Shown here: positions 1,226 through 58,176 of the stretch, piece after piece
Numbering within the stretch: position 1 is the first letter of the stretch
Layout: each line of letters opens with the position of its first letter
DNA from: Ulota crispa
Lineage: Eukaryota; Streptophyta; Bryopsida; Orthotrichales; Orthotrichaceae
Length of the DNA stretch: 64,000 bases
Direction: 5' to 3'
Assembly (NCBI GenBank): GCA_963920765.1
Contig: OY987242.1
Span: 24,328,002 to 24,392,001, forward strand
The notes under the pieces: model-generated
Seen by the model: the letters and a program-made list of their open reading frames with translations, nothing else
Databases searched by the model: none
What the model was told of the DNA's origin: nothing
Made by a program: the position numbers and the translations under genes

Positions 1226-2162
1226 TTAACCCCTAAAGGCTTCAACGTTTTTTGGCAACATAGTGATTTTGGGCAGCTCACTACAAATGGATTTTTCATT
1301 ATTTTTCTTTGAAATTTTCACACATGATGTGTCCAAGGAGTAGCTTTAAAGCCCAAAAAATTTCATAACTTTTGACTTCATGGTTCAAAAGTTGTTGCAT
1401 GATATGTAGTTTTCTTTGTTTAGGGGGCAGTCGGGCAGCTCAAAAAGCTTCTTTAAAATCACATTTTTTGATTATTTTTTTTGAAATTAGTTCTTTAGAT
1501 ATGTATATTCTTGGGAAGCTTTGAATCATTCAATTTTCATTAATGAGATGAAAGTTATGAGGAGATTCTATTTGCGGGCAGTTATAGATTCCCTACTCTA
1601 AATAAAACTTTTAAGTCCTATGTTTTACTCAATTTTTAATATTTTGGAAAAAGAATAAAGCCAAAGTATGTAGATTGTTTATTACAACACTTTGAACATT
1701 GAGATTGGAATTTTAGTTTTTCATAATTAAATTCTTAACAATTTAGTGTTTTGTATCATTCTCTACTTCTTTTTATTTACTATTTTTTTCCTATGTGTTG
1801 TACCTTTCCAAATGATTTGAAAATTTTCAAGTGTGTACCTAACTTGCCTTGAAGAATGAATACAAAAAATTACAACCATTTTGAAACTTTTTTCATACAA
1901 ATATGACCTTAAGAAGTGCAGCGGCCCGGATTTTTGTAGGGACAAAAAATGACTTTTTGTCAATTCAAACTCAATCACCTAACAATCCACATGGCAGAAA
2001 TTTCTGAATTTTTTTTGACATCTTTGGATACTAGTGTACTACAAGATCTTACAATTAGATGTGTCCAAAAATAACTTTTATCTAAAATTTGATACTTGCA
2101 CTACAAATGGCAGTTTTGGGACAGTTTTGATGAAAACATAGTCAAAAGCCTTTAGGGGTTAA
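1226..2162. mobile_element. T1, non-autonomous TTAA element
   Basis: Left end TTAACCCCTAAAGGC and right end GCCTTTAGGGGTTAA are exact inverted repeats. The next approximately 50 bp inward are also related (GGGCAGCTCACTACAAATGG near the left end, CACTACAAATGGCAG near the right). No coding frame. TTAA stands at both borders. Confidence 0.85.
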
Positions 2163-3504
2163 TTGACTATTTTGATTATGTTGTCCTAAGAAAAATCTCT
2201 GTTCTTGTCAGTCAATTGGACAAATAAGTAGTAAACCTTCAATTGGTTTGCTATAAAGCTACAGAATACAATTTAATGCATGAACTGCAAAGCTTTTATA
2301 GTAATTTGATTCCCTTTATTTGCTCATAGAGTAGCTAGCTTAAACCTCTATGGCTAATCAAAACCTAAGGAAAAAGTACTTATAGGTTTAAAGATTTAGG
2401 TTCATAATCTTAAAACTTATTTTAGCTTATTTAACTTATATTTTAAGACATCTAATATGGTCTAAGAACTAATTCTATGTCATATACATAGTATGCCTAT
2501 CTTTAGTTGTATTAAAGACCACCTAGAAGCATTGAATAATAGACTATAGAGTCTAGAATGTTGTCAAAAGTATTGCAAATCTAACTTTTTAGTTTTCTTT
2601 AAAAAGATTTTGTAAAGCCTAAAATAAAAATGTGCTACTTTGCTAAGCTTGTAACTTCAGAATTCTCTTGGCAAAGCATATGGTGACTACTTGCATAGGA
2701 ATTTAGAAAACCAAAAAAAAAGAAAAAGTCCAGGGTTCAACATAATATAAAAAGATCTCACCCTTTGTCTAGGGTTTAAATATCTTCACTATTCCTTATC
2801 CAACATTTTGTTATTTTTAAGAATATAATTCAATAGGAGCAAATTTCGACCCTCAAAAATGTAAGGTATAAACCACCAACGTTGTCATATGCCACTTTGG
2901 ATCAAGGATAAAATTAGATCCCTTTTATACAAATTCAACCAACTCGTACAAATTGCTGGTAGCCCCTTTGGTATAAACACTCAAATTGGAGTTTGAAATC
3001 TCTAACCTTGTGAATTACCCCCTTCGGTGTGAAAGTAATCTCTAATAAGGTCTTTATTTTCTTTAGACATTGCATGACTGTGATGATAGGCATGGTGGAC
3101 AAAGGACTATAGGGCCTGACATGGCCATTACAAGGGAAGTGGTTCAGCACTTTAGCCCATGTGACAAACGAATATGTATCAGTGAAAATGAGAAAAATAA
3201 ATACTTAATCGGGGGCTGAGCCAGCCTTTAAATTTTGTTTTTTCGTTGGTTGGTAGCGAGACAGGCACCGAACAATACAAGCATGTAAGAAAAAAATTGG
3301 ACAGAAATGGATAGAATCGACTCCTTGTGCATGTTCATCCATAAAATATACTAATTTTAGTCTTTCTCATTTAAATTTTGGTAAATGTAGTGATTGCTTG
3401 AGGAGGGGATTGACAATTTCATCCATTTTTTCACATGATTATTCTAATGTTACAATAGTCAATCCAAAATCAAGGTAAAATTTAAGCAAAAATTTGCCAA
3501 GAAA
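2163..3504. other. Intergenic, one dispersed block
   Basis: Nothing gene-like. From about 3240 (GTAGCGAGACAGGCACCGAA) to 3504 lies a block that recurs around 21480-22190 and 29455-29712. Each time it ends next to a T-element terminus. Confidence 0.45.
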
Positions 3505-3660
3505 TTAACCCCTAAAAGCCTGTTGTTCCTACAAGGGGACAAAATGGATTTTGGGCAAACTTTTTCTATTGAAAATTTTGTCAAATTATTTAAATTTTAT
3601 TTTTGAAATAGAGTTTTGCAAGGGCTACACGGGCGTATAATTTTTAGTAAGATTGAATTC
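3505..3660. mobile_element. T2, solitary left end of a T element
   Basis: TTAACCCCTAAAAGCC followed by the typical ACAAAATGGATTTTGGGCA subterminal stretch. I find no matching right end before 5 kb, so this is a truncated or decayed copy. The right limit given is only where resemblance fades. Confidence 0.55.
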
Positions 3661-4114
3661 ACAATTCAAAAGCTATGAGTCTTTTATGTGCTCTTTTTGT
3701 ACAAGGGGCAATGCAAGCATGCCAAATTTTGATAATTTCTCTCAAGGGCCACAAATGAAGGCATGAACCTTCATTAGAATATACCAAGAGCAATAGTATA
3801 CTAGCTGAAATCATTTTTGCATTTGATAAATACACTAACATTTGAATAGGAATAGCTATTAGAGATTTGATTTTTTTTCAACTTTTTTTGTGGCGTCAAT
3901 AAAGTTAAACTCTTTCAATTTGCCGTTTGGATTTTTACATTTTTATATTAACACTCAAAAATTGAGGTTGCAAAAGCCCAAACGTTATGGACATTTCAAG
4001 CGCATGCTTGCAATGCAAGGCCATGTAGGGTGTGTTCCATGTCTTTGATGAATTTAAAAATTGGTGGAGATATGCCAACATGATTTAGAGCATGTTGATT
4101 GACTCTCTAGAACA

Positions 4115-4350
4115 CCCTTATTAAATTCTTGTTCCTTAAGGGGGTTTTTTTAGCATGGAAAATATGCATGTATATGGATATTTCCTGCATATCCACTGAA
4201 TCAAATCTCATAAATTCATCACCAATTTTTTGCAATCAATTATCATGTAAAACCATGAATTTCTTACAAAATAATTCACCAAAAATGGAGTTTTGGTTTT
4301 TAGGAACTAATATTTTGGTTTGCTTGATTGGGGTTGCATAAGAATCCAAT
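4115..4350. mobile_element. M6 single arm fragment
   Basis: TTAAGGGGGTTTTTTTAGCAT followed by a stretch resembling M6 arms (CCACTGAATCAAATCTCA, ATGTAAAACCATG). Only one arm is present. Confidence 0.55.
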
Positions 4351-6572: not shown

Positions 6573-7825
6573 TTAACCCCTAAACCACAAAATTTTGTTC
6601 AACTGTCAGTTGAAAGTTTGGGTAGGTTCCTATGAAGTCAATTACTGGTAGATGTTTTTGAAGTTTGGAGACGAGGTGCACACAATTAATACCTTTGTGT
6701 GAAAAAAAACCCCCAAATCAGATACTTGAACAAAAAGTTATGCTACCCAAAAGAATTTGGGCACTTTAGGCAGTTTGGGCATCTTTGGAGAATCTTATGC
6801 TAGAACTTTCATCAACTTTTGAAACTTGGCATGTATGTTACTAATAAAATATGGTATACAATTGTCAAAATAAAATTGAGCTTACAAATCACAATCTAAG
6901 AGGAGTCAAACTTTGTGAACTATGTTTGGGTAGTTTCAAGAAACAATAGTGTCTTCTAACTTTAAGCCATGTTATCTTGCATTTCATAAATTCAAAGTTC
7001 TTGGAACTCTTTTTGCATATTCCATATGTTTGCCTCTAACCTTTTATTGTTCAAAATTAAAACTGTTTAGGAAAATTTCAGCCCTCAATAAGGCCTTTAT
7101 AAATTTTGTTCCTGATGTGGGAACTAGCCTTGAACTAGTCTTGCTAATTGCCCCATAAAAATAAATTAAAAGAAAAAGAAAAAGCAAAAGAAAAAGAAAA
7201 TTTAGAAAAAACTTTAGAAACTTTTTTGATTTTTTTTAATTAATAAAATGACATGGCACTAATGGTGCCACGTCAAATTGCGCATGTGCAAAGTTGGTGT
7301 AATGTGCCCAAAGGTTTCCATGCTTGGTAACTCAGGGCCTTATTGAGGGCCCAAATTTTTTCTGATGGCAAAGATTTCCTCTTTGCACAAGAAATCATGA
7401 AAATATGACTACTATATTGCCAATTCACTGAACCCCCTTGCATTGCAAGGTGATTTAGACTAAGCTATATTCTTTATTTGCTTCTGAAATTTTCATGAGT
7501 GAACCTAACATTAAACACTGATGAATGGTCAGTAGTCTTGTTTTGTGTGAAGCAAAAATTTCACTTCAGGAGGGCTCAAAGTCTCTTGACCTTGTTTTGC
7601 AAGAACATTAAAATGGTGTTTTTCTCACTTCAAACATTATAACCTTACAATCTACATGGTCAAATGGACTAAATGTTTTTTGCACATTGCCTTACTTGTA
7701 TATTACACTTTTTTATGGTTTAAACTAAAAAAAATGTGTTTATTTTTAATTTTAAACAAACCTTCAAAAATTGGTAGTTTTGGTCTTATTTTCCTTTGCA
7801 ACACCCTTTGGGCTTTACGGGTTAA
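6573..7825. mobile_element. T3, TTAA element nested in a fold-back element
   Basis: TTAACCCCTAAACC at the left, GGCTTTACGGGTTAA at the right, inside the right arm of fold-back M6-2. Its interior is a diverged copy of T6 (e.g. both carry ATGTTACCC or ATGCTACCC followed by AAAAGAATTTGGGCA). An M1 element (7065-7368) is inserted in it. Confidence 0.85.
7065..7368. mobile_element. M1-2, MITE inside T3
   Basis: Same ends as M1-1 (CAATAAGGCC, GGCCTTATTGAGGGCCC) and the same internal CATGGCAC...GTGCCACG motif. It is absent from the sister element T6. Confidence 0.7.
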
Positions 7826-8296
7826 GGATTGTCTTTTTAGAAGGGAAAAGGTACGTATGGATGTTTCCTACATATCCATGCAATCAAATCTCAAAAATTC
7901 ATCACCAATGTGTTTTAATCAACTTTCTTGTAAAACCATGATTTTGACACAAAACAATTTACCAAAAATAGAATTTTGGTTTTTTGTAACCAAAATTTAG
8001 TATGGTTGATTGGAATTGCATGAGAATCATATACCAACAATATGAGATTGAAATACCATTTATATTTTTTGTTACACAAACTTGTTTGGAATGCCAAAAC
8101 ATGGATTAAGTATCATTGTGTAAGAGTACTATACAATACGCTGAGTTCTAGTGATCCCAAATATGATTTTCACTTTAAGCACAAGTGGCTAAAAACACTG
8201 TTAAAAAGTTAACTTTTTCAAATTTAACACTAGAAAATTGATATTTTTTTAGTTGCATGAAATTTTTGTTAGCAATCTTGAAAATTTTAGCTAGTT

Positions 8297-9156
8297 TAAC
8301 CCCTAAAGGACTTGATCCATTTTGAAATGGTCAAACTTCATGTCTAAGCTCAATTTTGCCTTTAAAAGTGTATTTAAACAAAAATATTATATTTTTATTG
8401 CTTGGAACTATGAATAATATATCATTACAAGAAACTTCAATTTGTTTCATGAAAAATTGTAATTGTTATAAACAAATTTCAAAAAATGAACATAAATAAG
8501 TTAAAATAGCAAAAAAAGTCCAAATTACTTGATTTTTTTTAAAGAGGTAAAAGCAGCATTAAAGATTAGTGCAAAAAAATTCCAATTGGTTATTTTATTT
8601 TTTACATCCAAAACAATCACAACAAAGTATTCAAAGTCAAATTTGACTATCAAACCAAATTTATCCTTAAATTTAATTAATTATAAAATTTTGATATTTT
8701 TTGCTAGAAGATACATTCATTTTCTATTTAATTTATTTTCTTTGATAAATTTGATGGAAAATTCAAATTATTGTGATTTTTAAAGCTAAATGTGGAAATA
8801 AAATCATATCAATTAAAATATATATTAAAAAAATCTTTAATTTTTACCATAAATGAACGGTAAAATGAAAAACATAGTTGTATAGTTTAAACTTAAAATG
8901 CACTCAAAGAGTAGAAAATATGAATGAAAAACAGACCATATTGTGTTATGTGGATTTTAACACTTGGAGCTTTCAATGGCAATAACTCTATTGGTTTTTG
9001 ACATTTTTCAAAAAAATTGAATGGAATAGAAAGGAAACTTGTCAAGCTTTGATTTCTTAATTTGAACCATGTACCAAAAAATGACATTTTGAAACTTACA
9101 ATCAAGGTTGACCAAGGTGCATCCACTTTTTGGATGCATGGACCTTTAAGGGTTAA
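8297..9156. mobile_element. T4, TTAA element
   Basis: Ends TTAACCCCTAAAGGA and CCTTTAAGGGTTAA, flanked by TTAA on both sides, about 860 bp, very AT-rich, no gene. Confidence 0.75.
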
Positions 9157-10582: not shown

Positions 10583-11682
10583 TTAACCCCTAAAAGCCCA
10601 AGTAGTGTTTTTTGGCAACATAGCAATTTTGGGCAGCTCACTACAAATGGAGTTTTCATTTTTTTTCTTTGAGATTTTCACACATGATGTGTTCAAGGAG
10701 TAGCTTTAAAGTCCAACAACTTTCATGACTTTTGATTACATGGCTCAAAAGTTGTTGCATGATATGTTTTTTTCTTTGAGATTTTCACACATGATGTGTT
10801 CAAGGAGTAGCTTTAAAGTCCAACAACTTTCATGACTTTTGATTACATGGCTCAAAAGTTGTTGCATGATATGTTGTTTTCTTTGTTTGGCAGGCAGTCT
10901 AGGCAAATCAAAAAACTTCTTTAAAAATTTACATTTTTTTAATTTTTTTTTAAAAATCTGTTCTTTAGATTTATGTATACGTGAATTTTGAAAAGCTTTG
11001 AATCATAAAATTCCAATTTATGAGGTGAAAGTTATGAGATGTTTTAGTTTGTGGGTACGTGTGGTTTTAGAGAGACTCCATACCTACCCACAAACTAAAA
11101 CTTCTCATAACTTTCACCTCATAAATTGGAATTTTATGATTCAAAGCTTTTCACATATACATAAATCTAAAGAACCAATCTTAAAAAAAAAATCAAAAAA
11201 ATGTAAATTTTAAAGAAGTTTTTTGATTTGCCTAGACTGCCTGCCAAACAAAGAAAACAACATATCATGCAACAACTTTTGAGCCATGTAGCCAAAAGTC
11301 ATGAAAGTTGTTGGACTTTAAAGCTATTCCTTGAACACATCATGTTTGAAAATCTCAAAGAAAAAAAATGAAAACTCCATTTGTAGTAAGCTGCCCAAAA
11401 TTGCTATGTTGCCAAAAAACACTACTAACACTAGTAGAAAATTCAGCACAAAATCAACAGAATTTCAACCAAAAACAGTTGATTTTTTCTGTGAATTTGG
11501 TCAAGTTGATTTGGGTACTTTTCTGTTGATTTTCTGTTGATTATTTACAATTTTTTGTTAATTTGTTGTTGATTTCTATTACGTATTTTATGTTGTTCAA
11601 TTCTATTTCTTTTCATTTTTAAATTATTATTTTCATAGAATTTGTTTTTATTTTATGAAAATGTGAAATTTTTAGGGAACGG

Positions 11683-11772
11683 GCAGCTGCCCAAATTTTT
11701 GGGCAGCTACCCAAGCCCCCAGACAGCTGCCCAAACTTTTGGGCAACTGCCCGAGCCTCCAAGCAGCTGTTG
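11683..11772. repeat. GGGCAGCTGCCC palindromic repeats
   Basis: Four to five partly degenerate copies of GGGCAGCTGCCCAA in about 90 bp, each a self-complementary 12-mer containing CAGCTG. No match to this array is seen in CACTA-like element 2. Confidence 0.7.
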
Positions 11773-11777
11773 GTAGT

Positions 11778-11850
11778 GGTAGTGGGGTTTGAACCCTCCA
11801 CCTCTCCTCTCACACTCCACAACCTTAGCACATTCTCAAAACCATTAGAG
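11778..11850 (-). other. Diverged tRNA-like block in CACTA-like element 1
   Basis: The minus strand carries GGGTTCAAACCCC (B-box-like), with a weak CTAATGGTTT A-box-like motif upstream, at the same relative position as in element 2. Confidence 0.35.
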
Positions 11851-12370
11851 AATGTGCAAATGCACATACACACATGGGTATCTTGATTCTATTTGTACAT
11901 TAAATGTTCATGTCTTTAGTAATCCAGTAGACTTTGGAGGCTATTTCCGCCCATTAAAGGACTTTTTTTCAAAAAACTTAGAACTACAAATAGTTGGTAA
12001 ATGTAATTTTCTTTCACCTCCAATTTTTTTTTTTAGATTTCAATCTTTTTATCAAAAGTTATGAGCTAAAATTAGAGAAGGTGTTTGGAAATTTTAAATA
12101 AATTGTTTATTTCCATCCTTTTGATTTTGTTTATAAATTTTTTTTGGAATTCACAAATCTCATAAGGATTGTTGCAGGCAAAAGTTGGATTCATTAATAA
12201 TTATTATTTAGTGCTAGTTTTTTTGTAAAAAGAACCTTATTTTGTTAAAATAGCCTCTATAGTTTGATAGCTTCAAATAATATGAAGTCGTGAAAAGTTA
12301 CGGAATTAAAACCTTGCAATTATAAAATCAAAATTCTATTGACTTTTGAATAGTTTTGAATATTTTTTAA

Positions 12371-12782
12371 GGGCATTAATATGTGAACCACACCCTTTGA
12401 ACTACTGTACTACACCCTCGGGGTAGATTTTAGATTTCTACCATCAAAAATTTGAGTTTGAGAATTTTAAATTCAAATTTGGACTTAGAGACTATGATAT
12501 TGTCAAGGACCATAAAAGAAATTGCAATTCAACAACACCCAATGAAAAAGCTTATCTTTTTTTACAAACAAAAGTAAAATTAACAATTTTCTCCCTAACT
12601 AAACTTTTTCATTGGGTGTTGTTGAATTGCAACTTTTTTTATGGTTCTAGACAATACCATGGTCTCTAAGCCCAAATTTGAATTCAAAATTTTCAAATTT
12701 AGCTTTTTGATGGTAGAAATCTAAAATTTACCCCGTGGTGTGGTATAGTAATTGGAAGGGTGTGGTACACATATCAATTCCC
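12371..12782. mobile_element. M5-1, palindromic MITE inside CACTA-like element 1
   Basis: Starts GGGCATTAATATGTG and ends CACATATCAATTCCC. The arms are inverted copies around about 12570 (CAACAACACCCAATG and complement). Confidence 0.8.
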
Positions 12783-13649
12783 ATCTTTTAAAGCTTATAA
12801 AAATATTTTATAAGATTGTTTTTTTTTAATTCATTTGGTTAGTAATAGAAGGAAAATTTCTAAAAATGCCCTTTAAGTCTTTCAAAATATCAAGTTTACG
12901 CCGAAAATATGTGAAACATAAAAAATAGTCCTTATTTTTTTGTAGGAATATCAATTATACTCCTATTATTTTGGAAAAATAATAAAAAAGCTCTTCTATT
13001 TTGAAATGTTAAATATATCCTTGTGTTATTTGAAATGTAAAAATCACCTTTGGTTTCTTGTAAGAATTTGCATTAAACTATACACTTGGTTATCATGTAA
13101 CACAAAGATATTTTTGGTACTTTTAATCCTTAAGGGACATATATGATTTCTTCAAAGAATTGAAGAGCATCATTTATATTTGTTTGTAAAGAAATTTTGG
13201 TATTTAAAACAACAAAATGTTGTACGTTTTATATAAAATTTTGTTGAATTAGTGAAGTTGTGTCCAAAAGTATCTAGATCAACAAAAAATTGTTGAGTTT
13301 TATGTTATTATGGTCATGTTTTTACTTGACTTTAAAGGCTGCTAAGTTTAAATCTTACCAAATTGTGAAAAGTAAAGAAAATAAAACTAGTCAATGTACA
13401 CTCAAACTTCTAAAAGATTCTTTTTTTTTTGAAAACTTCTTTTATTTTTTAAAACTTCAAAAAAATTTAATGAGGTCCAAAAAGATTTTAGAAAGATTTC
13501 AAAAACAAACCTAAACTATTGTGATAGTTTTTTTGAAAGTATTTTGATGATTTACAAAAAGATTCCTAAATGACTCTAATTCAGTCTAAGAGATTCTATT
13601 TCTATAAGTATTTTGAAGTACTTTAACAAATTTCATAAAGATTTTAAAA

Positions 13650-14190
13650 AGATTCTCAAAGATTCCAAAAAGGTTCTTGAAAATTCTTAGAGATTTTCAA
13701 AGATTTTTTGAATTTCAAAAAGGATTTTCAAAAGATTCCCAAAGATTCTCAAAGATTCTCAATTGTTCTCAAACATTCTCAAAGATTCCAAAAAAACTTG
13801 AAAAGATTCCAAAGATTTCCAAAGATTCTTGAAGATTCCAAAAAGATTCTCAAAGATTCTCAAAGATTCTTAATTTTTCTCAAACATTCTCAAAGATTCC
13901 CAAAGATTTCAAAAGATTCTCAAAGATTCCTAAAAGATTCTCAAAGATTCTCAATTGTTCTCAAACATTCTCAAAGATTCCAAAAAAACTTGAAAAGATT
14001 CCAAAAGATTTCCAAAGATTCATGAAGATTCCTAAAAGATTCTCAAAGATTCTAAAATCTCGAAAAGATTCTTAAATATTCTTAAAAATCCTGAAAAGAT
14101 TCTCAATGAGTCCCAAAAGATTCTTGAAGATTCTTAAAGATTCACAAAAAATTCCCAAAAGATCTTCAAAAGATTCCAAAATTTTTGTTG
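13650..14190. repeat. Subterminal AAAGATTCTC repeat tract of CACTA-like element 1
   Basis: Dozens of approximately 10-11 bp units, consensus AAAGATTCTC or AAAGATTCCA, in one orientation. It makes a spurious Ser/Lys/Asp-rich open frame at 13708-14025. In CACTA elements such subterminal repeats bind transposase. Confidence 0.8.
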
Positions 14191-15224
14191 ATTTAGATAA
14201 TGGTGTCCAAATCAACAAAACGTATTTAGTTTTTTACAGAATTTTGTTAAATTAGTCAATTAGCGTGGGCAAGCGCCCAAATCAACAAGAAACTGTTGGT
14301 TTTCTGTTGTTTTGGAAGGAGTTTTCTACTAGTGTAACTTGGGTCTTTAGGGGTTAAGCTATTCTAGCTCTAGCGTGAACAAGAAAGTCCTCCACAACGG
14401 CATGAACAGAAGCTTGTACTAGCTCTTCATGCTCTCTGGAAATTGGTAGCGGCTCTGTGGGGGAGGCCCAAATTCAAGGTCCTCTAGTGAAAGTACAGGC
14501 TAAGGCCCAATTGAGACTAGCGGCCGGACAAAGCAGCAAAATTGGCACCTCTACCAGTGGTTCATCCGTTGGGAACTTTTCCATGTCATTGTGTGTCATC
14601 CAAGAGTGTGCTTCTACTACATAAGTTTGGTACCACCCTTGGAGAAAGCTCCAAAATTTCACTATTTTGGCCACTGACGTGGCTATATTGAATGGTGAAC
14701 ATGGATGTTAAAATATGGGACAAACCTTGAGTTTGAACCCTCCAACAAACAAAAGCCATATTTCAACCAATCACGTTTGAGAAAATTTTAGCCGGTTGCT
14801 AAGGTAGAGTGCTCATAAATTGTCCATTTAAGCCTACCTAACTCATCAATCATTGTACTCAATTTATCAACTCCAATGTCACCCATTCCTAGAGCCAAAC
14901 AAAATTAGAGCCTACTCGCACTAGTAGAAAATTTTATAGAAAATCAACAGATTTTCCACTTGAATCTGTTGATTTTATCTATGACTTTAGTCAAGTTGAT
15001 TTGGGTGCTTTTCAACAAGAGTTTGTTGATTTTTTTTTGTTTCTTGTTAATTTTTGGTTAATTTTTTGTTAAATTTTTATGTTAAATATAAATTTATATC
15101 AATGTTTTTTTTTTCATAAATTTTGTTTTATTTATTTTTATTATTATTATTATTATTAAATTTATTTTTGAATCCAGCCAGGCCAATTGCTGGCCTTGTG
15201 GAGCAGCTAACCGCAAGCACGCCA

Positions 15225-22203: not shown

Positions 22204-23153
22204 CTAAACTCCTAAAGGACCAAGTGTCCGTTCAACAGCCACTTGACAACTCAGTTAGGGTCATATGAAGTTAATTTTTATTGGATGTTCTCAAAATTGT
22301 TACACAAGGTGCAAATATGTATTCCGTAAGTGGAGATGTAACTTTTTCCCCAGTTGGATGTCTGGTTCAAAAGTTATGTTACCCAAAAGAATTTGGGCAG
22401 CTTGGGCATCTTTGGAGAATCTTATGCTAAAACTCTCATCAATTTTTGAAATTTGGCAAGTATGCAACTAAAAAATCATAATGTACAATTGTCAAAATAA
22501 AATAAAATTGAACTCTCACATCACATTTAGAAGGGAGTCAAACTCTATTAACTATGTCTGGGTAGTTTCAAGAAAAAATAATTCCTCTAACTTCAAACCC
22601 TATTATCTTTCAATCCATAAATTAAAAGTTCTTGAAACTTTTTGGCATATTCTAAATGTTTGTCTCTAACTTCTCACCCTTTGGATTTCAAATAAAAGAC
22701 TTCCTCATTGCACAAGAAATCATGAAAGAATGTCTAATGTATTGCCAATTCACTAAACCTCCTTGCATTACAGGGTGATTTAGAATAAGCTAGATTCTAT
22801 CATTGGATCTGAAATTTTTCATGAGCAAATTTAACATCATATACTTGTGAATGGTCAAAAAGCTCAAATTTGTGAAGAGCAAAAATTTTACTCTAGGAAG
22901 GCTCAAAGTCTGTTGACCTTATTTTGCAGGAATGAAAAAAATCTATTTTTCTCACTTCAATTGTTATATTCTTACAATCAGCAATGTGAAATGGACTGAA
23001 TTTTTTGCACATATTAACTTATCTATTTAACACACTTTTGTATGGTTGGAATTGAGAAAAAAGATTCTTATTTTCAATTTTGGGCAATGCACTAAAAGTT
23101 GGCAGTTTTTGAGATTTATTCTCAAAAAACACCCTTGGTCCTTTAGGGGTTAA
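22204..23153. mobile_element. T6, TTAA element, sister of T3
   Basis: Right end GGTCCTTTAGGGGTTAA is intact. The left end has decayed to CTAAACTCCTAAAGGACC. The interior aligns with T3 but lacks the M1 insertion, so it serves as an empty-site reference for that insertion. Confidence 0.75.
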
Positions 23154-24499: not shown

Positions 24500-25431
24500 T
24501 TAACCCCGCTAAAGGACTAAGCAATGTTTTCACCAAAAACTCTCTAAGATTGCCATTCTGAGAGCATCAATCAAATTTGAAAACAAGTTTGAAAACAAAA
24601 ACATTTTTAGGCATATGCAACCATAGGATCTTGAAGTAGTATAGTTTTGGAAGATGTGGAAAAATTTCAGAATTTTCCACCGCATGAATTGGAAGATAGA
24701 ATGGTTTGAATATTCAAAAAAGTTTGGTGAAAAACTAGGCAGCTACCATTTAGAAGGTGAAATTCATAAGGAAAAAAGGTTGTATGGGTGGTGCTTCCCT
24801 AGATTTTTTACCCCACCTAAGTGGGGTACATGTCAAAAAAGTTTCAAATCATTCAGAATTGTATAGCATATTGGAAAAAAATAGTAAGTGTAAAGAAGTG
24901 GAGAATGATTCAAATGACTAAATTGTTAAGAATTTAATTATAGACATGAAAATGCCAATCCCAATAGTTGTAATGTTGTAATAGACAATCAACATCCTTT
25001 GGTTTTGTTATTTTTCCAAAATGATGAAGATTGAGTAAACTAAAGGACTTCAAAGTTTATTTTAGAGTAGAGAACTATAACTGGTTGCAAACAAAAACTC
25101 CTCATAACTTTCATCTCATTGACAAAAATGGAATGACTCCAAGCTTTCCATATTCACATAAATTTCCTTAACCAATTTCAAAATTTTGTTTAAAAAAAAA
25201 GTGATTTTATAAAATATGCCCAAGCTGCCCGCTAAGTGAAAAAAAAACATAGTAGGTCATATCTTCTTGTTCATAATTCCAAATTTCATGAATTCAATGC
25301 ACATGAATGATAAACCTTGTTCCCACATTTTGTTAAAATTTCAGCCTAAAATATGAAAATCTCCAATCACAATTACCTGCCCAAAATCACTATGTTGCTA
25401 AAAAAGGGGGGCTTGGTCCTTTAGGGGTTAA
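24500..25431. mobile_element. T7, TTAA element
   Basis: Ends TTAACCCCGCTAAAGGAC and GGTCCTTTAGGGGTTA(A). The interior resembles T8 (GATGTGGAAAA near the left, a shared AGAGTAGAGAA motif in the middle). No coding frame. Confidence 0.75.
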
Positions 25432-26380: not shown

Positions 26381-26399
26381 GTATTCTCACTTCTCCCCA

Positions 26400-28079: not shown

Positions 28080-29038
28080 TCAACCCCTAAAGGCTTTCGA
28101 TTAAGTTTTTGCCAAAATCGCTCTAAAACTATCATTTCTAGCACAAGTATCAAATTAAGAAAAATAAATAAATTTGGACACATGTAATTGTAAAATCTTG
28201 TAGTACACTAGTACTAAAAGATGTGGAAAACAATTTAGAAATTTCCACTATGTAAATTGTTAGATATTTGAGATTGAATTGTCAAAAAGTCATTTTTTAT
28301 CTTTGCAAAAACCTAAACATCTGCACTTCACAAGGTTGTATTTGTATGAAAAATCATCAAAATGGTTGTAACTCTTTGGATTTATTTTTCAAGGCAAGTT
28401 TGATACACACTTGAAAAATTTCAAAATTTTGGAATTGTGCAACACATAGGAAAACAATTGTAAGTAATCAAAAGTAGAGAATGATTCAAAACACTAAATT
28501 GTAAAGAATTTAATTATGAAAATGAAAAATGCAAATCCCAATGGTTTAAATGTTGTAATAAACAATTTACATCCTTTGGTAATTCTTTTTCCAAAATAAT
28601 AAATCTTGAGTAAAATAATGGACTTCAAAGTTCATTTCAGAGTAGAGAATCCATAAATGCCCGTTGTGATGCTTGCAAACAAGTTCTCCTCATAACTTTT
28701 ATCTCATTGAAAAAAATGGAATGATTCAAAGCTTCCCACGTGTATTACATATAGACCTAAAGAATCAATTTTAGTTTTAATTTTAAATTTTAAATGTAAT
28801 TTTTAAATAAGTTTTTTGAGCAACCCAGGCTGCCCAACAAGCAAAGAAAACTACATATCATGAATTAACTTTTGAACCTTGTAGTCAAAAGTTGTGAAAA
28901 TTGTTGGACCTTAAAGCAACTTCTTGAGCACATCATGTGTGAAAGTTTCATAGAAAATTATTGGAAAATATATTTGTAGTGAATTGCCCAAAATTGCTAT
29001 TTTGCAAAAAATAAATTGTTTGGGCCTTTAGGGGTTAA
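28080..29038. mobile_element. T8, TTAA element abutting T9
   Basis: Left end TCAACCCCTAAAGGC (TTAA changed to TCAA), right end GGGCCTTTAGGGGTTAA. The right-hand TTAA is also the left-hand TTAA of T9, so the two elements share one target copy. Confidence 0.75.
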
Positions 29039-29896
29039 CCCCCAAATGCCCTAGGCACCAAATTTTGGTGTTCAAAAAATTTCAAGAAAGTTTGAATGCT
29101 ATTGAAGGCACAAATTTGGTTGTTTTAAACATTTTTTTTGGAAAAGTTGTGCGTTGAAGTTAGCTTTAGCGCTCAAATTTAATTTCCTCCATATTTTATT
29201 CCAATTATTTTCTATGGAAGCTAAACTGCAAGCATATGTTTTATGTCACAAATAGTATCATGACAGTGTCACAAAGAATGTTATGAATAGTGTCACAAAG
29301 CCTATGACAAGTTGCCACATTGAAAAGACAAGCATCAAGTTGAGAAAAAAGTGAAGATTTCCCTTAGGCAATCTCTTAGGCAATAAAGACCCTTAATATT
29401 GAAGTTTTGTCATCTAACCAAATTTAACCCCTAAAGCTAGCGTTTTTTGTTTTGTTTTTGCTAGTAGAGTGACACACACCCCACCATGCATGCAGGCAAG
29501 GAAAACTTGGATAGTCATTGACGTTTGCTTGTTCATCCATAAAATCTACTAACATTAGTACCTCTCATCCAAAATTTGGAAAATTTGGTGCAGACTTTGG
29601 GAGGGATTTGGCAAATCCATTCATTTTTTCAAAGATTTTGCTGGTGTTATGGTAGCCAAATGGGTTTTGAGGTAAGGTTTAGGCAAATTTTTGCCAAGAT
29701 TGTTTTTGTTGCCTAAAGCTCTAAACAACATTTTTTTGGCAACATAGCAATTTTGGGCAACTTGCTACAAATGGGTTTGTCATTTCTTTTTTTTGAAATT
29801 TTCATGGATTATGTGTCCAAGGAGTGGCCTTATGGTCCAACAATTTTCATAATTTTTGACTTCATGGTTCACAAGTTATTGCACAATATGTATAGT

Positions 29897-31202: not shown

Positions 31203-32838
31203 TTAACCCCTCAAGGCCTAAGCAGCCTTTTTTAATGATGTCTAGGGATTTTGGATAGGTCACTACAAATGAGTTTTGCAATGGTTTTTTTATTAAATTT
31301 TCACACATGAAGTACCCAAGGAGTAGCTATAAGGCCCAACAATTTTCATGACTTTTGACTACATGGTTCAAAAGTTATTGCATGACATGTTTTTTTTGCT
31401 TGTTAGGGCAGCCCGGGTAGCTCAAAAACTTCTAAAAACCCCTAAATGCCCAAGGGTGTTTTTCTTGTTTTCAAAAGGCAATTTTGAAGTTTTTGATTTG
31501 TCCTTGTAAGATCATTATTAAACATCAAAATAAAATTGTAACCATTAAATCTTGAACTTCAAGGCTTCTACATAGCGTTACCCAAAAAGAATCCAAAATG
31601 GCTCTGCAGATTTTAAGATATTTGCAATTGAATGATGATGAGAATAGAATTTTTTGCTTTTTCAGAAGCTGCCCAAAACTTCTAATGCAAATTGGCAACT
31701 TCTGGATACAAAATTGGAAAACAACCACTTAGATTGCTTTAGTGTTTATTGTTTTTACTTCAAAATCAATGGCCCCCTTCCATATCCATGACCACAATTT
31801 CACAAATGAGTCTGCAACGCAACTGTCAAAACGCAACCATCTAATACAAAGAAAATTTCATCTCCAATTATGGACCAAAAATCATTATGAATGAAATAAT
31901 TTTCAATGGTGAAAGGATTCTAATTTTTGTAACAAAGACATTCCAAGTGAAATTAGTCCAAAAACACTTTTAGATTTTGGTAAATGTCAAAATTTCAATA
32001 AAAAGGCCCTTATTACCTAAGGGAGTGCCCAAGGGAAATCTTCACCTTTTGCTCAACTTGATGCCCACCTTTTCAATGTGGCAACTTCTCGTAGGCTATG
32101 TGACACTATTCACGACACTATTCATGTCACAAAATGTATGCTTGTAGTTAACCTTCCACCAAAAACAATTGGAATAAGATATCGAGGAAGTTGAATTTGA
32201 ACGGTGGAGCTAACTTCAGCGCACAACTTTTCCAAAAAAAAAACTTGAAAATGATAAAATCCGTACCTTCAACAAGGTTTCAAAGTTTCTTGAAGTTTTT
32301 TGGACACCCAAATTGGGTGCCTTGGTCATTTAGGGGTTAAAATTACATTTCAAGTTTGGGTTTTCTTTAATTGGTTCTTTAGATCTATATATAGGTGGGA
32401 AGCTTTTCATCATTCAATTTTCATTAATGAGATAAAGTTATGAGAAGTTTTAGTTTGCAGGTAGGTAGACTCCACACCTATCCACAAACAATAACTTCTC
32501 ATAACTTTCATCTCATTAATGGAAATTGAATGATTAAAAGCTTCCCACCTGTATATAGATCTAAAGAACCAATTAAAGAAAACCAAACTTGAAAAGTAAT
32601 TTTTAAAGAATTTTTTGAGTTGCCTAGGGTGCCCTGACGAGCAAAGAAAACAACATATCATGCAATAACTTTTGAACCATGTAATCAAAAGTCATGAAAA
32701 TTGTTGGGCTTTATAGCTACTCCTTGGGTACTTCATATGTGAAAATTTAATAAAAAACAAATGCAAAGCTCATTTGTAGTGACCTACCCAAAATCCCTAG
32801 ACATCATAAAAAAGGTTGCTTGGGCCTTGAGGGGTTAA
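31203..32838. mobile_element. T11, TTAA element nested in T10
   Basis: Perfectly matching ends TTAACCCCTCAAGGCC and GGCCTTGAGGGGTTAA. Its arms are inverted copies around about 32470, interrupted in the left arm by T13. Confidence 0.8.
31435..32340. mobile_element. T13, innermost TTAA element of the nest
   Basis: Left end CCCCTAAATGCCC preceded by AAAA (a decayed TTAA), right end TCATTTAGGGGTTAA, about 0.9 kb and uninterrupted. It is the reverse-oriented full copy of the subfamily of which T9 is the interrupted copy. Confidence 0.7.
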
Positions 32839-33165
32839 ACTGTTAAAGCCACTCCTTGGACACATCAAGTGTGAAAATTTCAAAGAAAAAAAAAACAAAA
32901 AACCCATTTGTAGTGATGCCAAAAATCATGCTATGTTGCCAAAAAAACGTTGTTCAAGGCTTTAGGTGTTAAAAGTGCTTTGGACTAATTTCACTTGAAA
33001 TATCTTTGGTATAAAAACTAGAATTCATTCACAATTGAACTTTCTTCCATTCATAATAATTTATGGTCAATAATTGAAGCTAAAAAATTCTTTGTTTTAG
33101 GCAATTGAGCTTTAACAATTGGCTCATTTACAAAACTATGGTCATGGATCTAAAAGGGGGGCCAT

Positions 33166-33320
33166 TAAGGTAAGACCACCCATTCTTGAACCTTTAACAA
33201 CCTATCCCCAATTCCAACCTTATGTACCCAAGGAGTACATTTCAAGATTGAAATGTACACCACAAGTACATTAAGGGTCGGAATTGGGGACTGGTCAGGA
33301 ATAGGTGGTCTTACCTTAGT
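33166..33320. mobile_element. M8, 150 bp AGGTA-type MITE in T9
   Basis: TAAGGTAAGACCACC to GGTGGTCTTACCTTA, an exact inverted pair. T13 has the corresponding site without it, supporting a TA duplication. Confidence 0.8.
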
Positions 33321-33649
33321 TTTCAAGTAATAACAATAAACATTAAAACTTCCTAAGTGGTTGTTTCCCGATTTTGTATCCAAAAGTTGCCAATTTGCAT
33401 TACAAAAATTTCAGGCAATTCCAAAAGCAACAAAAAACTCCATACTTGTCCACAATCAATCACAAATATCTTAAAATACATGTGGCCATTTTGGACTGTC
33501 TTTGGGTAGCACCATCTAGAAACCTTGAAGTTCAAGATTCTACAAATACAATTTTGTTTTGATGTTTGATTAATAATGGTCTCGCAAGGACATTTCAAAA
33601 ACTTGAAAATTGCCTTCCGAAAACGAGAAAACTACTCTTTAGGGGTTAA

Positions 33650-44829: not shown

Positions 44830-45006
44830 TTATTGATAACTTCTTCAACAAATGTTAGAATGAAGAAAAAATTAAATGCCTGCGTAGGTTTTGGAATTCC
44901 ACACCTTCAATAAATGTTTCAAAAAATCACACAAACTAGTTTAGCTATAGGTACATGCCCAATACCCATTTGTCCCTTGAGGGCATAGTTGGGCCTTTAG
45001 GGATTA
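44830..45006. mobile_element. T17, right arm of a T element
   Basis: Ends GGGCCTTTAGGGATTAA and matches the last approximately 180 bp of T16 (shared TACATGCCCA and the ATAAATGTT/ATAAAAGTT region). No left end found. Confidence 0.55.
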
Positions 45007-45735
45007 AAAGGTTCACTCTAAGGCACGTAATCAATTTCAACTTACTTTCTTTTGTGTCCTTGAATAGGGATTATTTTATTTTACATTTCAAATAGTATGT
45101 CACATGCCTTTTGTCCTTCAGTTTTTTTTTTTAAATTGTGAAAATTTGAAATTATTACAAAATTTGAAATTATTACAAAATTTGAAAGAATAAATGAAAA
45201 AAACTCATATCAAACACAAAATGAGTTTGGAAAGCTTGAAAAATTCAACATAGGTGCAAGATATAGTGTAGAACAACATAATGTAAATCAAAATTCCATG
45301 TACTCTTGTAACTTGAAAACAATAGTCCTTGTTTACGGACCCAAAGTCAAACCACAATATAATACTCAAATTATGGAAACCTTCAAGTTTTCAAAATTGG
45401 AGTAAATACTAGTCTTAGTTAACTTCATTCTATTGGCTAATCTCACACTCAAAAAAGATCAAATTTTATGGCTAAAGATTCAAATCTAAAGCAAAGAAGT
45501 ACATATATTCAAAATACATTAAAAAAGCATCTTCCAATATTCAATTATCCAATTTCTTTAGCATCTTTTGTAGTAGAAAAGTCAATAGCACGCTATTTAA
45601 AAAATTGCCACTACCATCCACTGCAAACACATTCAAGAAACTCTTAAGAAAAGAATGAGATGAAAAAATATCACTCTTCATCCAAATTTTGAACCTAAAA
45701 TCATCTCACTGCCATTGCATTCTTTCTTGGCACGT

Positions 45736-46200
45736 AACCCTTAAACACCCAAGAGGATATTTTATGTTCCGTATTCACCAAAAATCCTTTGTAGGACCCC
45801 AAAAAAAGTCATTTTTCATATGTTTTTAGAAGTGATCATAAAGACATGGTCCAGCATGAAAGGCAAAACATAAACTTATCATATGCATTCATATTTTTAA
45901 GTATTTCAAATTGTGGGAAGATTCACAAATATATTGTTAGGTTCCATGTCCTTACAATTTTCATGAGATTAGCATGCACTCTTGGCTTTTGCAACTTTTA
46001 AAAAAATTATTATAATAGGTGAGTACTTGTCAAACCATTGTAGAGCACTATAGAACTATTTTTGAGTGGTAGTCATTGTGATCAATTGAGTGATCAAGGA
46101 TTGTGGATGAAAGAATCCATTACATTGAAAAATCTAATTTGTACTTTAGATATTTTTAGAGCTCAATTATTTTTCAAGCCATCTGCCTTATTCACTAGAG
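45736..46200. mobile_element. T18, T-like element with eroded right end
   Basis: Left end GTAACCCTTAAACACCC. The interior (AAGTGATCATAAA, then GGCAAAA) resembles T14 upstream of DQD/SDH copy A. The right terminus is not recognisable before T16 begins. Confidence 0.45.
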
Positions 46201-46926
46201 TTAACTCCTAAAGGACCAAGCCCCCTTTTTGGGGACAAATGGGATTTTGGGCACGTACCTATGGCTAAACTACTTTGCGTGATTTTTTGAAACTTTTATG
46301 AGGGATGGGGAATTCAAAGATCTGTGTGGGCATCTAACTTTTATCTCATTCCGACATTTATTGAAGAAATTAAAAATGAATTTATGAGAATTTTAGTTTG
46401 GCGGGCAGCCCAAATACTTCTTTAAAAATTGCATTTTTTAAAAATAAAAATTTGAGGTTAGTTCTTTAGACTTATGTATATGAGGGAAGCTTTGAATCAT
46501 TCAATTTAATTGATGAGATGAAAGTTATGAGAAGTTTTAGTTTGCGTGTAGGCATTGTTTTGAGATTCTCCACACCTACCCGCAAACTAAAACTTCTCAT
46601 AACTTTCATCTCATCAATTAGAATTGAATGATTCAAAGCTTCCCACATATGTGTAAGTTTAAAGAACTAACCTCAAATTTTTATTTTAAAAAAACGCAAA
46701 TTTTAAAGAAGTTTTTGGGCTGCCCGCTGAACTAAAATTCTCATAAATTCATGTTTAACTTCTTCAATAAATGTTGGAATGAGATAAAAGTTAAATGCCC
46801 ACACAGATCTTTGAATTCCCCATCTTCCATAAAAGTTTCAAAAAATTACACAAAGTAGTTTAGCCATAAGTACATGCCCAAAATCCCGAAAGTCCTTTGA
46901 TGGGACTTTGGTCCTTTAGGGGTTAA
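46201..46926. mobile_element. T16, palindromic TTAA element
   Basis: Ends TTAACTCCTAAAGGACC and GGTCCTTTAGGGGTTAA. Nearly the whole element folds back on itself around 46560, with the conserved core AGTTTTAGTTTGCG and its complement. Confidence 0.8.
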
Positions 46927-52000: not shown

Positions 52001-55000
52001 GTTTGTCCCATGGCTAATCCAATTGTTGGCCTCTACAGTGACAACATGACGTGAGCTCTTGCCATAAAGCACCCGACATCATTAAAACCTTCCCATTGCA
52101 TTGACAAAATCCAAATTATAAGCTAGTATATATCAGATTCATAATGTCCTGATGTTGAATTAATGTAGGTAAATGGTATTTTCAATATATTTGATGTTCC
52201 TGAGATGTTAGTGTCGTTGATACTAACCTTGATTACACATTGCCAACTGTTAAGTTATATGTCTAAAGTCGAAGGGTTCATGACATTATAATGAGCAACT
52301 CGACAGATCATACGGTGAAAAACATAATTCAAATGAAGACATAATTTACATTACAAAATTAGTCAGAACGTTGCATATGCTGGAGAAAAAATTAAAAAAA
52401 ACTGGACAAAAGAAAGCCTCTACATGCCCTACACAAGGATGCTAGAAAAAATCACATGCAGCCCTATCTCGGACCCTTGGTCCTTCAAGCGGCTAACATT
52501 AAATCATTATTCCCTTGACATTTGTAAATGAATCAAGGGGAGATAGAAAGACTTCTCAGTTTAAAGACTAATAGCCACAAGTGCGCAAGACAAAGAAATT
52601 TTCATGTACATGAAAGTAAACCCTATGACCACTGGAGATAATGTGCGTTAATTCAGAAAAGGCACAACTCACTTTCGCCGCAGATAAAAATTGAAAAACT
52701 CGTGAAACATCCGTGATGTCTTCCGCAGTGGTCACGAATTTCACAATGTCACCACCCGTCGCCCACATTCGTTCTATGGTGCTGTCAATCTCCTCTTGCG
52801 AGGGGGTCGATTCCCAGTTATGATTTGACACGATGATCTTCGTTGGTGACTTCACGCTGCTGCCCCTCACCTCCTTGATAAAATCTTGAGCCACCTGTCG
52901 AATGTACATTTTAAGGACCGACCATTAGCTACCAGCCTCTAAAACCAAAGTGATAGTCTCATAACATCCCCGAACGAATTCACAAAGTCATCAATGTCAC
53001 ATTCACGTTGATCTCATTGAACATGAGCTCAATATTGAGGTAAAGCTCAAACGATAACGTTAACTAACCATTCAATTAACACCCATTTGGATCACATCCA
53101 CATCAACTTAACCTTAATTTATACTCCCTCTGTCCCTCTAAAAAGCTCCAAATTAGACACATTTCTTGTACCACTAAAAAGCTCCCTTTTGCTGATTTCA
53201 AACGCTGAGAAAGCATTTGCCATGTTCAATGATCTCATGGGGGCAAGTTAAGCAATCCGAGAGCATTCCTGTCCTAGCAAGCTTGGCCTTGCCCATATGA
53301 GGTATCATTGTTACTACTAATCTTTAAATCATCAAGAATGAGAAGTTGGTAGCATGCACAAATATGGTACTTTTTGCATGGGATTTGGGTGCCCAAACGG
53401 TGACATCAAAGTTGGAGATTTTGCATACAATTGGTAGATGGTATATTGATTCTAGAATGCATGTGTCACTAGCACAAAGACTAAAAACACAGATAATCCT
53501 TTGCAAGAAAGCTTTTTGGACGTTTTTAGAGGGACAGAGGGACTACTAACTTAACGCTCGCACTTTAACCCCTAAAGGATGTTGCCTACCAAAAGTGTTG
53601 TATGTATTTATAGGAGAACCATTTAGTACTTCAAAAAAAACTTTACAACAAATGTCAAAAATTCCCCAAAAAATCCTAGTTGACCAATATTATGTTTTTG
53701 ACTTGGCTTGAAATTTACAACTCCAATGGGATTCACGTGCTATCCAAATAGCCCATCCGTAAGCAACACGGGAGTCCGTATACAAAACAGCAACATCCTT
53801 TAGGGGTTAACCTCAACTAAAACCATCTTCATTAAACTAACATTATCTCAACATGAGGACTCTCTGAGTCTTCTGCCTAGTGTAAGTGAACAAAAAATAA
53901 CTTCGACAATCTAACTACGTGATGCAAATCGTCCGAACAACCAAGCAGGCACCACATACCTTCAGTTCCACATCAATATAGTCGGCTCCCAGGTCATAGG
54001 CTCTCCGCAAGAGCGCCTGCCTTGCTTCTTCATCACCCTCAAACAATCCACCTTCCCATTTCGCCCTATGATTCAATCAACAATAACATCCAACGATGTG
54101 CTTGTACTAATTAACATGCCATATTTGAAATTGCACAAAGACTTGACACTCCAGTGCTCAAAACTCTGAACACTAGTACTTTCAAGAGCCTCAAGCTTTC
54201 GCAACCTATAACCCTCACTTGCTCGGATAAGTTTTGAGGTGACCAAGTGAAACCTTGAATAAACCTAGAGTATAGGATTGTCACAAATTACAAACTTCAA
54301 TTTACATTTGGGCTAAGGTAGTATGCTCTAATTGCGACTCTTTCATGTAAAGGGTGCCATAGGTAGCTCAAGAATGGATCTGAAGTGGTCCTTGAATGGA
54401 CCTCTTCAAGTCATAGAAGAAAAGGTGTATTTCATTGCAAGAGTCAATCACACTCTTTGGTTTCTCCTCATCTCTTTACAAGTTGCAAGGGAACAATGTC
54501 TGTTATATAAAAATTTGAAAAATCATCAAAAATTCAATAATGCTTCAAAAAATATGAAAAAAATTGTGTTACATTTGGCATCCATTTCTTTTTGTCTGAA
54601 AATTAGACAAAAAAACCTTCATGCCTTGGAAGCTCATGAAAAGGCAGATCAACCCTTGAAGTGACGGTTTTAGAGCATGCTCCCTCTTTCCCAATATAAA
54701 ACTCCAAATTAGGCATAGTTCTTGTCTCACTAAAATGCTCCCTTTTGCTAATTTCAATTGCTAAGAAAGCATTTGTCATGTCCAATGATCTCATGGAGGC
54801 AAGTTAAGCAATTAGACAACATTCCGCTCCTAACAAGCTTGGCCTAGCCCATATGAGGTACCATTGTTGCTACTAATCTTTAAATCATCAATAATGAGGA
54901 GCTAGCAACATGCACAAATACGGTACTTTTTGCATGGAATTTGGGCAACCCAAACAACAACATCAAAGCTGGAGATTTTGCACACATTTGATAGATGATA

Positions 55001-56280: not shown

Positions 56281-56328
56281 GCTTGCCCCGATTCTTTCTT
56301 GTCCTCCTCTTCCCCTATCTCCCTCCAA

Positions 56329-57030
56329 TTCGTCGCTCTGTTACTCAGTAACACAAATCAAACACAAGGCTTGCAATCAGAAAAACATGCGAAAACAAAC
56401 CCCTGCGAAACGGCAAAAGAATGGCTATTGTACTATACACACTCGTCTCAAACCCTAGCGACATCAAAAACAGTCAAATCCAAGAGAATATTGAACCAAG
56501 AGAGGATATTTTGAACTAACAGTTCGTCAAGCTTCATAATCTCACCGAATTTCAGCTGCGCACCACAATTGAAATCACAAACAATAAAATTTCAAACTCC
56601 CGGACCTAATTCGAATGCTCCTATTCTAGTTCGAGAAATCAGCCATTCGAAGAATTGAGAGTATATAAAAAAGAGTCAACGAGTTGTAGCAAAAAGTAGC
56701 AGCTGAAGGCTGACTGAGCAGCAGCCAAAGCACACAAACAATGACGACTGACGGCTTTGACGAGTGAAAGTATGGGTCCCACAACGACGACTATTGAGAG
56801 CGTGAAGGAAGCGAGAACATAAGCTTACCGTGTTTTTTGTAAAGCTTGTAAAGCGGAATTTGCGAAACTTGGATTCGGAACTGCAAGTTTTGAATAAGCA
56901 GCGAAGGTTGGAAAATGGTCGTAGAAGCGCAAACACGGGCAATGGCGGCTATGGCGGCGATGGCGATAGTGTAAGAGCAAAATTCAGAGTTGGATTTGGA
57001 GAGGCGGGGTTTATTGGGAGGGACGAGCAA
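56329..57030 (-). promoter_or_regulatory. 5' region of DQD/SDH copy A, with possible spliced leader exon
   Basis: The DNA is GC-richer than the intergenic repeats. On the minus strand, about 57000-56826 reads as an open frame of transit-peptide-like composition (Ser/Ala/Ile-rich) and ends at a good donor, CACG/GTAAGC at about 56825. It contains no ATG, and joining it to acceptors near 56345-56352 does not keep a common frame, so I favour a 5' UTR exon. A TATA-like tract lies at about 56660-56670. A T element begins at about 57039, immediately upstream, so the usable promoter is short. Confidence 0.4.
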
Positions 57031-57038
57031 ATTTGTGC

Positions 57039-57388
57039 TTTGCCCCTAAACGTAGGCACGGACCAAAAACGTCCGTTGCCTCTGAAAAAAACTCCCATTC
57101 CAAAAGACCAATTTTGATCCTTTTTTTACAAAAGTGATCATAAAAGCGTAGTGCATCATGGAAGGCAAAAATTTACCTCTTGAGATACATTCATTTTGTT
57201 TTGTAACCCAAATTGTGATACATGGTGTTAGCTCCTGAGCTGCCCTTCTTGCAATTTTCATGAGGGCACCATGCATTGTTGACTTTTCCAATTTTTTGAA
57301 GCAATACTACTGGTGCCCATGTGCAAAATATTGTAGAATGCTATAGACAAGGCAAGCCACGGTGATCCATCCGTCCTTTAAGGGTTAA
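57039..57388. mobile_element. T14, T element directly upstream of DQD/SDH copy A
   Basis: Left end GCCCCTAAACG (flank TTTG instead of TTAA), right end TCCTTTAAGGGTTAA. The interior resembles T18. Confidence 0.55.
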
Positions 57389-57535
57389 AAAAGGTGTCTA
57401 GTGTGTTTTCCAAAATGTGGCCAAGTGGAGCAAATGTTAGTCAACTTTAAAGAAAATGTAGGTACATAAAATGTGAAAATGGCTATCTTAGATTTTGAAT
57501 TCTCAGTACATTTTAGCTATGTGTTTTAACACCTC

Positions 57536-58176
57536 AACGCCCATGGACTTTCCCAAGTATCTCAGAATCTGCTCTTGGATGAACAAAATGACAACATTTT
57601 GATAAGTTGCATCAATTTTTTTAAAATTGTAACCATACAAATTCAAACTAGATATGTTAGAGATCACATAGGATAAGAAAACACAACAACATCACTTATG
57701 GATTGAAAGATTATAAGGTTTGATTATGTGGGTGTTAAAACTGTGAAAGTGATTTGAAGACTTTCAATCCTCTTTTCACATCTCAAATTTAAAATTGAGG
57801 ATATCAAACAAAATATGAGTATGTAAAGTACAACATGTGTAATCCTAATCAATTTATGGCTTCTTAAAATCTACTCTACAACTTTTTAAATTAAATTTTC
57901 AATGTGATTGTTTCTCCAAGTTCTAGTGTACTCTAGGCTCATTTCAAGAGCTCTCAACACTAGAAAGTGAAGATCTGCAATGGACACCCTTGCACAAACC
58001 TTAAATAGAAAAATCATAATTAGTCATTTTCAAAATCAAGATTTTGATACTAAAACAAGATTTCAACAAGAATTTCTTTTTAAAGATCATGGTAATTAAT
58101 CATGAAGAAAATTTAGGCATCCCAAATTCCAAACAAGGAGGGACAGTTTTGGTCCCCTTGGGCGGTGAGGGGTTGA
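57536..58176. mobile_element. T15, diverged T element
   Basis: TTAACACCTCAACGCCC at the left and GGGCGGTGAGGGGTTGA at the right form an inverted pair. The right TTAA has become TTGA. Confidence 0.5.

Follow-up and report, generated by a model that had tools for sequence, protein, structure and literature searches.

The closest described relatives of the elements reported here are piggyBac of Trichoplusia ni (PDB entry 6x67) and piggyBat of Myotis (PDB entry 9c0f), together with the short non-autonomous elements with piggyBac ends, or miniature inverted-repeat transposable elements (MITEs), that the abstracts of two papers present from coral (PMC2872659) and Daphnia (mPok; PMC4912750). For plants, the accessible part of a MITE review lists PiggyBac among the angiosperm MITE superfamilies (PMC10004981), and one table of the C-fern genome paper counts 1,230 PiggyBac fragments covering 122,417 bp (PMC6890710). 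The available text of a P. patens transposon paper deals with long terminal repeat (LTR) and Mariner elements (PMC7466625), and a further excerpt states that animal piggyBac, already employed as a tool in rice, was untested in P. patens (PMC5505980). Of two other papers, PMC10619864 contains only the word piggybacking and PMC13120521 does not mention piggyBac. Among the papers listed, judged largely by titles and abstracts and with subscription papers mostly outside reach, we saw none that describes piggyBac elements native to mosses. Here, we analyse a stretch of 64,000 nucleotides from the moss Ulota crispa (contig OY987242.1, positions 24,328,002 to 24,392,001; hereafter the window) within an assembly of 274.8 Mb in 157 contigs. 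We put at about 0.93 the probability that most elements of the window are non-autonomous representatives of a piggyBac-superfamily group that is large, diverse and old. The basis is their common ends, a TTAA target, empty sites with a single TTAA, transposase genes of Pfam family PF13843 inside elements of about 5–7 kb, and one internal deletion.

The moss elements resemble piggyBac and piggyBat in their TTAA target, their CCC termini, the aspartate triad, the fold and, in the genomic locus L041, a cysteine-rich C-terminus, but they differ from them in the low protein identity to the solved structures (18–21%), the moss host, the size of the transposase-bearing elements (about 5–7 kb), the CCCCTAAAGG ends with their variants and the very large number of these ends. 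With the animal MITEs, as far as their abstracts describe them, they share short non-autonomous bodies and piggyBac ends, whereas here the host is a plant, and several variants of the end occur together with long palindromes in one genome. The angiosperm and C-fern entries share with them a plant host and the superfamily name; in the parts of these sources available to us the former is a name only and the latter a small annotation count, whereas the moss has transposase-bearing elements with matching ends. An earlier note on this DNA had set the finding against flowering plants, for which it knew of no established, abundant piggyBac-type MITE class; the host is a moss, and the review (in its accessible part) already lists such MITEs for angiosperms. 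The superfamily is already known; what is new is the moss host, the scale and the diversity of subfamilies.

The family is recognized by its ends. Allowing up to three mismatches, TTAACCCCTAAAGG matches the window 35 times, compared with a mean of 7.1 and a maximum of 14 in 100 shuffles. A profile of 20 positions, derived from ends whose TTAA was intact or differed by a single base, recovers 33 ends of the TTAA-CCCCTAAAGG type at a score of at least 10 (four on the reversed sequence). Facing pairs were assigned by eye and then measured, placing 24 of the 33 ends in 12 pairs and leaving nine solo arms. Eight pairs have TTAA on both sides; the other four have it on one side only, and their imperfect side reads TAAA, TCAA, AAAA or TTGA (one each). 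With both target sites included the elements are 246 to 3,775 bp long, and the 12 pairs occupy 12,532 of the 64,000 bases (summed lengths, a nested insert being counted once). The inverted repeats start with CCC, and in ten of the 12 pairs (those in the automatic pairing list) 11–16 of the first 16 end bases match. Two elements are long palindromes (31203–32838 and 46201–46926); among the others similarity is mostly limited to the ends. Automatic pairing gave 35 pairs, with TTAA on both sides in 23, on one side in 11 and on neither in one; these include three spurious window pairs (29035–32340, 31203–32340 and 45734–46926) and two duplicates (L002/L003 and L004/L005). Over 63 distinct ends, positions 1–4 are T, T, A and A in 79–90%, and the six bases outside TTAA show no strong preference. 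When only the element side was scored, TTAA preceded 53 of 64 ends at a score of 16 (reversed control, no ends) and 72 of 109 at a score of 10 (control, 39 ends, two of them after TTAA), in a set of which eight loci had been fetched by a pattern that itself includes TTAA.

Across the assembly the exact TTAA-CCCCTAAAGG 14-mer occurs 15,411 times (7,719 + 7,692 on the two strands), compared with 1 + 0 for its reversed control, so that the abundant TTAA-flanked family proposed by the earlier note is seen both in the window and in the genome. The 10-mer CCCCTAAAGG alone has 18,843 sites (9,404 + 9,439; control 213), and TTAA precedes 81.8% of them. Ends with up to two mismatches number 69,740, compared with 3,339 in the control, an excess of about 66,400; if all of these were paired at about 0.9 kb each, they would, by a rough estimate, amount to some 30 Mb, or nearly a tenth of the assembly. 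One facing pair of ends, at L039 1521–1599, spans just 79 bp with both target sites included.

The duplicated target is the 4 bp TTAA. A longer duplication was considered and rejected, as an extension of one to five bases on either side matches in only one to five of the 12 window pairs; the tabulated sites agree with the TTAA target proposed by the earlier note. Empty sites were sought among repeat-family relatives of the flanks within the same genome, rather than at orthologous sites in other species, and a single TTAA was recovered for two window elements. For 6573–7825, four of seven aligned relatives (window 6447–6201, window 30333–30093, L006 971–1214 and L044 98–339) read GTTAC or GTTTC, one TTAA and then GG; of the remainder, one reads TTAC and two have no clean alignment at the site. 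For 662–1200 there is one relative (window 14860–14790, 44 of 52 bases alike), reading GGTAGGC-TTAA-ATGG. The flanks of the nested element 31435–32340, joined with the 4 bp given once (244 bp), have 2,880 candidate places in the genome; 40 of these were scored, giving 76 rows, of which 71 cover at least 229 of the 244 bases uninterrupted (among them the opposite arm in the window itself). At the site itself, eight aligned relatives read TTTAAA in six cases and TTAA with a one-base gap in two.

The window itself yielded no transposase (19 query proteins, nothing below E 0.16), in line with the earlier note. In the genome, by contrast with 14 control genomes in which PF13843 (piggyBac transposase) has no match, this family has 120 matches (best E 1.3e-73; 116 scored out of 528 first-look candidates), a few genes being split into two matches. 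An internal stop is present in 110 of the 120, and the present activity of the transposases is therefore uncertain. Thirty transposase loci compared with one another have longest matches, among those shown, of 63–79% DNA identity, apart from a single pair with 90%; some short matches are as high as 84%, and one locus had no match to any other. Among 30 loci fetched with flanks of 1.5 kb, not one showed ends at up to two mismatches. The bordered elements measure 5–7 kb, and loci of 9.9 kb revealed the borders that the shorter flanks had missed in seven of 14 cases. These seven have the transposase enclosed by a facing pair of TTAA-CCC family ends: L040 982–6991, L041 1867–7612, L043 1623–7053, L048 2595–7824, L049 2701–8008, L050 807–7802 and L052 2371–7826 (right site TCAA). 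The clearest is L041, which measures 5,746 bp, is flanked by TTAA at each end and has an inverted repeat that is perfect over 15 bp. The 14 widened loci hold 62 ends at a score of 9 (four on the reversed sequences), and the end closest to the transposase points towards it in 10 of 11 cases on the left and 12 of 13 on the right; if orientation were random, at least 22 of 24 would do so with a probability of 1.8e-5 (orientations read and probability calculated by hand). Five end variants border PF13843 copies, namely CCCCTAAATG (in L041 and L052), and, more distant, CYCCTAAGC, CCCCTTGAGG, CCCYTGAGCG and CCCCAAAAGG with CCCATAACGA; all have TTAA and a CCC start in common, and the subfamily letters agree between paired ends (L041 and L052 both have CCCCTAAATGCC, for instance, and L048 has CCCCTTGAGG). 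A piggyBac transposase bordered by ends of the family, for which the earlier note had proposed a search of the genome, is thus present, though with variant ends.

The proteins themselves point the same way. Open frames of L044, L042, L041, L045 and L046 match PF13843. In sequence searches against the solved structures, L044 finds piggyBac at E 3.6e-20 and piggyBat at 1.4e-16, and L042 finds them at 7.2e-19 and 2.5e-20, respectively. A model of the L044 frame, compared with known structures, has piggyBac (6x67) as its top hit (E 3.0e-21, TM 0.69 by query), with piggyBat next and Tn5 far behind. All three aspartates of the triad, which we take to be the catalytic residues, are kept in L042, and the third is an asparagine in L044. 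A C-terminal cysteine-rich stretch is found in the C-terminal open reading frame piece of L041 and in several homologues; the frames of L042 and L044, as read, lack it. Two protein searches returned 61 homologues (19 + 42), all with PF13843; the names of 60 are uninformative, and the remaining one is a piggyBac-derived protein from a fish, with 29% identity. Two sets of transposase copies deserve mention in their own right. The two-piece matches of L046 (C1:1180709–1181995), which has no clear left end, and of C8:19570986–19572215 contain no stops and could be young or host-adopted copies. The matches at C2:36765124 and C2:36779670 have identical scores, are oppositely oriented at a distance of about 14 kb and are possibly a recent inverted duplication.

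One window element is tied to a transposase-bearing element by more than its ends. The first 565 bp of L041 correspond to window 31437–31999 at 82.5% and the last 114 bp to window 32227–32340 at 78%, whereas the interior of L041 shows only short chance-level matches to 31435–32340. The element 31435–32340, matching at both ends, is therefore descended by internal deletion from a piggyBac element with a transposase. It is a short, non-coding, high-copy derivative of a coding element, as a MITE should be; such descent is established for the L041-type family only. A truncated arm in the window belongs to the same type: bases 1–335 of L041 match window 33649–33316 (80%) and bases 333–540 match window 33167–32970 (77%). 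This arm, 80% like the L041 left arm, carries CCCCTAAAGA and is a bridge between the L041 group and the commonest end. In addition, window 29035–29146 matches the last 114 bp of L041 at 72%. A search with the left arm of L041 gave 1,878 candidate places across the assembly, of which 40 were scored (one being L041 itself); all 40 copies begin at query base 1–6, 31 of them stop at 547–554 of 564, and the 39 non-self copies have 86–92% identity, as expected for a high-copy family with one common deletion. Separately, a palindromic repeat of about 330–415 bp occurs at window 12360–12783, at window 59805–60132 and in the interior of L041 (2881–3285).

These observations suggest a mechanism. A transposase with the aspartate triad (DDD) would have bound the inverted ends; the element would have been cut out and joined to TTAA, the 4 bp being copied thereby; and small elements that retained the ends would have been moved in trans and multiplied.

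Several results weigh against assigning the window elements to piggyBac. About a fifth of the CCCCTAAAGG sites in the genome lack a preceding TTAA. Three empty-site comparisons do not give the expected result: the sole relative of L074 1389–2124 reads TCAA, the same as the left side of the filled site (the right side being TTAA); the left copy of 31435–32340 has decayed to AAAA, and the site as joined is shifted by one base within a run of A; and for L047 8562–9478 none of four relatives is clean. The 14 widened loci were chosen for a high score or few stops and not at random, and in seven of them no clear facing pair was seen (L039, L042, L044, L045, L046 and L051, with a weak left end in L047). 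None of the seven bordered copies carries the exact CCCCTAAAGG, the commonest end of the window, and ties to a transposase-bearing element over longer sequence are limited to 31435–32340, the one truncated arm and the end at 29035, the rest being tied by ends only. Finally, the mean pLDDT of the L044 model, 67.4, is modest.

The missing CCCCTAAAGG and the reliance on end sequence for most window elements leave some room, which we consider small, for a mixture, in which piggyBac accounts for the L041-like elements and some of the other families sharing the ends were moved by a different TTAA-targeting transposase. Kolobok and Sola3 both target TTAA and have transposases of their own. The long elements sampled were all PF13843 loci, with no search aimed at Kolobok or Sola3; within that sample, no autonomous copy with the transposase of another superfamily appeared. 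The mixture is opposed by the five end variants, all of which border PF13843 with a common TTAA and CCC start, and by the L041-type arm, which ends in CCCCTAAAGA. Less probable still are Tc1/mariner-like elements with a TA duplication, ends of the form ACCCC...GGGGT and a strong preference for TTAA. Filled and empty sites at TTAA look the same for such elements as for piggyBac, so that the letters of the site alone do not separate the two; the proteins do, since the transposase inside same-type elements is PF13843 in seven bordered loci, with no mariner-type transposase between the ends, and the modelled L044 copy folds like piggyBac. PIF/Harbinger (Tourist-like) elements, common in plants (PIF is listed among the plant superfamilies), with a TAA or TTA duplication that is contained in TTAA and ends of ACCCC or CCCC, are the least probable of all, because a 3-bp duplication would leave unequal ends, whereas both ends here read TTAA-CCC around a symmetric 4-bp TTAA, and because the bordered transposases are PF13843.

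Within the window, assignment to piggyBac covers the following elements, which begin at 662 rather than at 1226 as first reported. Five have TTAA on both sides and lie in the first quarter: 662..1200 (539 bp, found by the end profile), 1226..2162 (937 bp, with a perfect 13-bp terminal repeat), 6573..7825 (1,253 bp) and 8296..9156 (861 bp) are non-autonomous, and 10583..14357 is a long element of 3,775 bp with no transposase found inside. Further non-autonomous elements are 22205..23153 (949 bp, left TAAA, right TTAA) and 24500..25431 (932 bp, right TTAA), the left end of which, TTAACCCCGCTAAAGG with one inserted base, was read by eye; its right end at 25428 (−) was counted as solo in the profile, and automatic pairing gives the element as 24502–25431 with 14 of 16 end bases matching. 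The non-autonomous element 28080..29038 (959 bp, left TCAA) shares its right TTAA (29035–29038) with an outward-facing solo end, 29035..29048 (+), the two standing back to back around a single TTAA as if one element had inserted at its neighbour's TTAA. The palindromic element 31203..32838, with TTAA on both sides, is about 730 bp long without the insert that interrupts it, and 330 of 363 aligned bases match between its arms; its family has 2,880 candidate places in the genome, 40 of them scored. The insert is the L041-type derivative 31435..32340 (+), with its right TTAA intact, and the truncated L041-type left arm follows at 32970..33649 (−), with its end at 33636–33649. A second palindromic element, 46201..46926 (726 bp, TTAA on both sides), has arms of 363 bases, 320 matching. 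Transcripts of these two palindromes, with arms of about 360 bp, could form long hairpins. The smallest element, 53565..53810, has TTAA on both sides and a perfect 17-bp terminal repeat; given earlier as 236 bp, it measures 246 bp with both TTAAs and 238 bp without. A degenerate element of 651 bp lies at 57526..58176 (left TTAA, right TTGA). Other solo ends are found at 3505..3518 (+), 29424..29437 (+), 32959..32972 (−), 44994..45007 (−), 45734..45747 (+; weak, GTAA, score 15.8) and 57375..57388 (−).

The window also contains a plant gene at 34361–40617 (−) resembling the AP-4 adaptor epsilon subunit; Pfam Adaptin_N is matched in the frame at 39835–40617. The plastid proteins agree with a moss host: PsaB scores 1,711.8 bits against entries of Physcomitrium patens, 1,673.5 against the entry that follows and about 1,630 or less against all others, several seed plants included. 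A 443-residue portion of PsaA gives the same picture; a third plastid protein, rps14, was of no use for placing the host. Elsewhere in the assembly, 46 of 48 PsaA/PsaB family matches are partial pieces outside the plastid contig, on nuclear contigs C1–C10, and insertions of plastid DNA into the nuclear contigs therefore seem frequent.

Taken more broadly, the piggyBac assignment invites a wider proposal, for and against which we see even odds: that mosses hold a deep, many-branched piggyBac lineage of their own, old enough to have formed subfamilies with distinct ends, which is now a chief repeat class of the Ulota crispa genome (a tenth, by the rough estimate above) and has spawned short palindromic elements that could feed hairpin small RNAs. 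Whether such a lineage reflects old residence or horizontal transfer becomes a testable question. Natural plant-resident transposases and their ends would be a useful source, given that animal piggyBac already serves in rice. With about 66,000 piggyBac-type ends above the control and many transposase copies, the moss genome shows that massive expansion of this superfamily is possible in plants.

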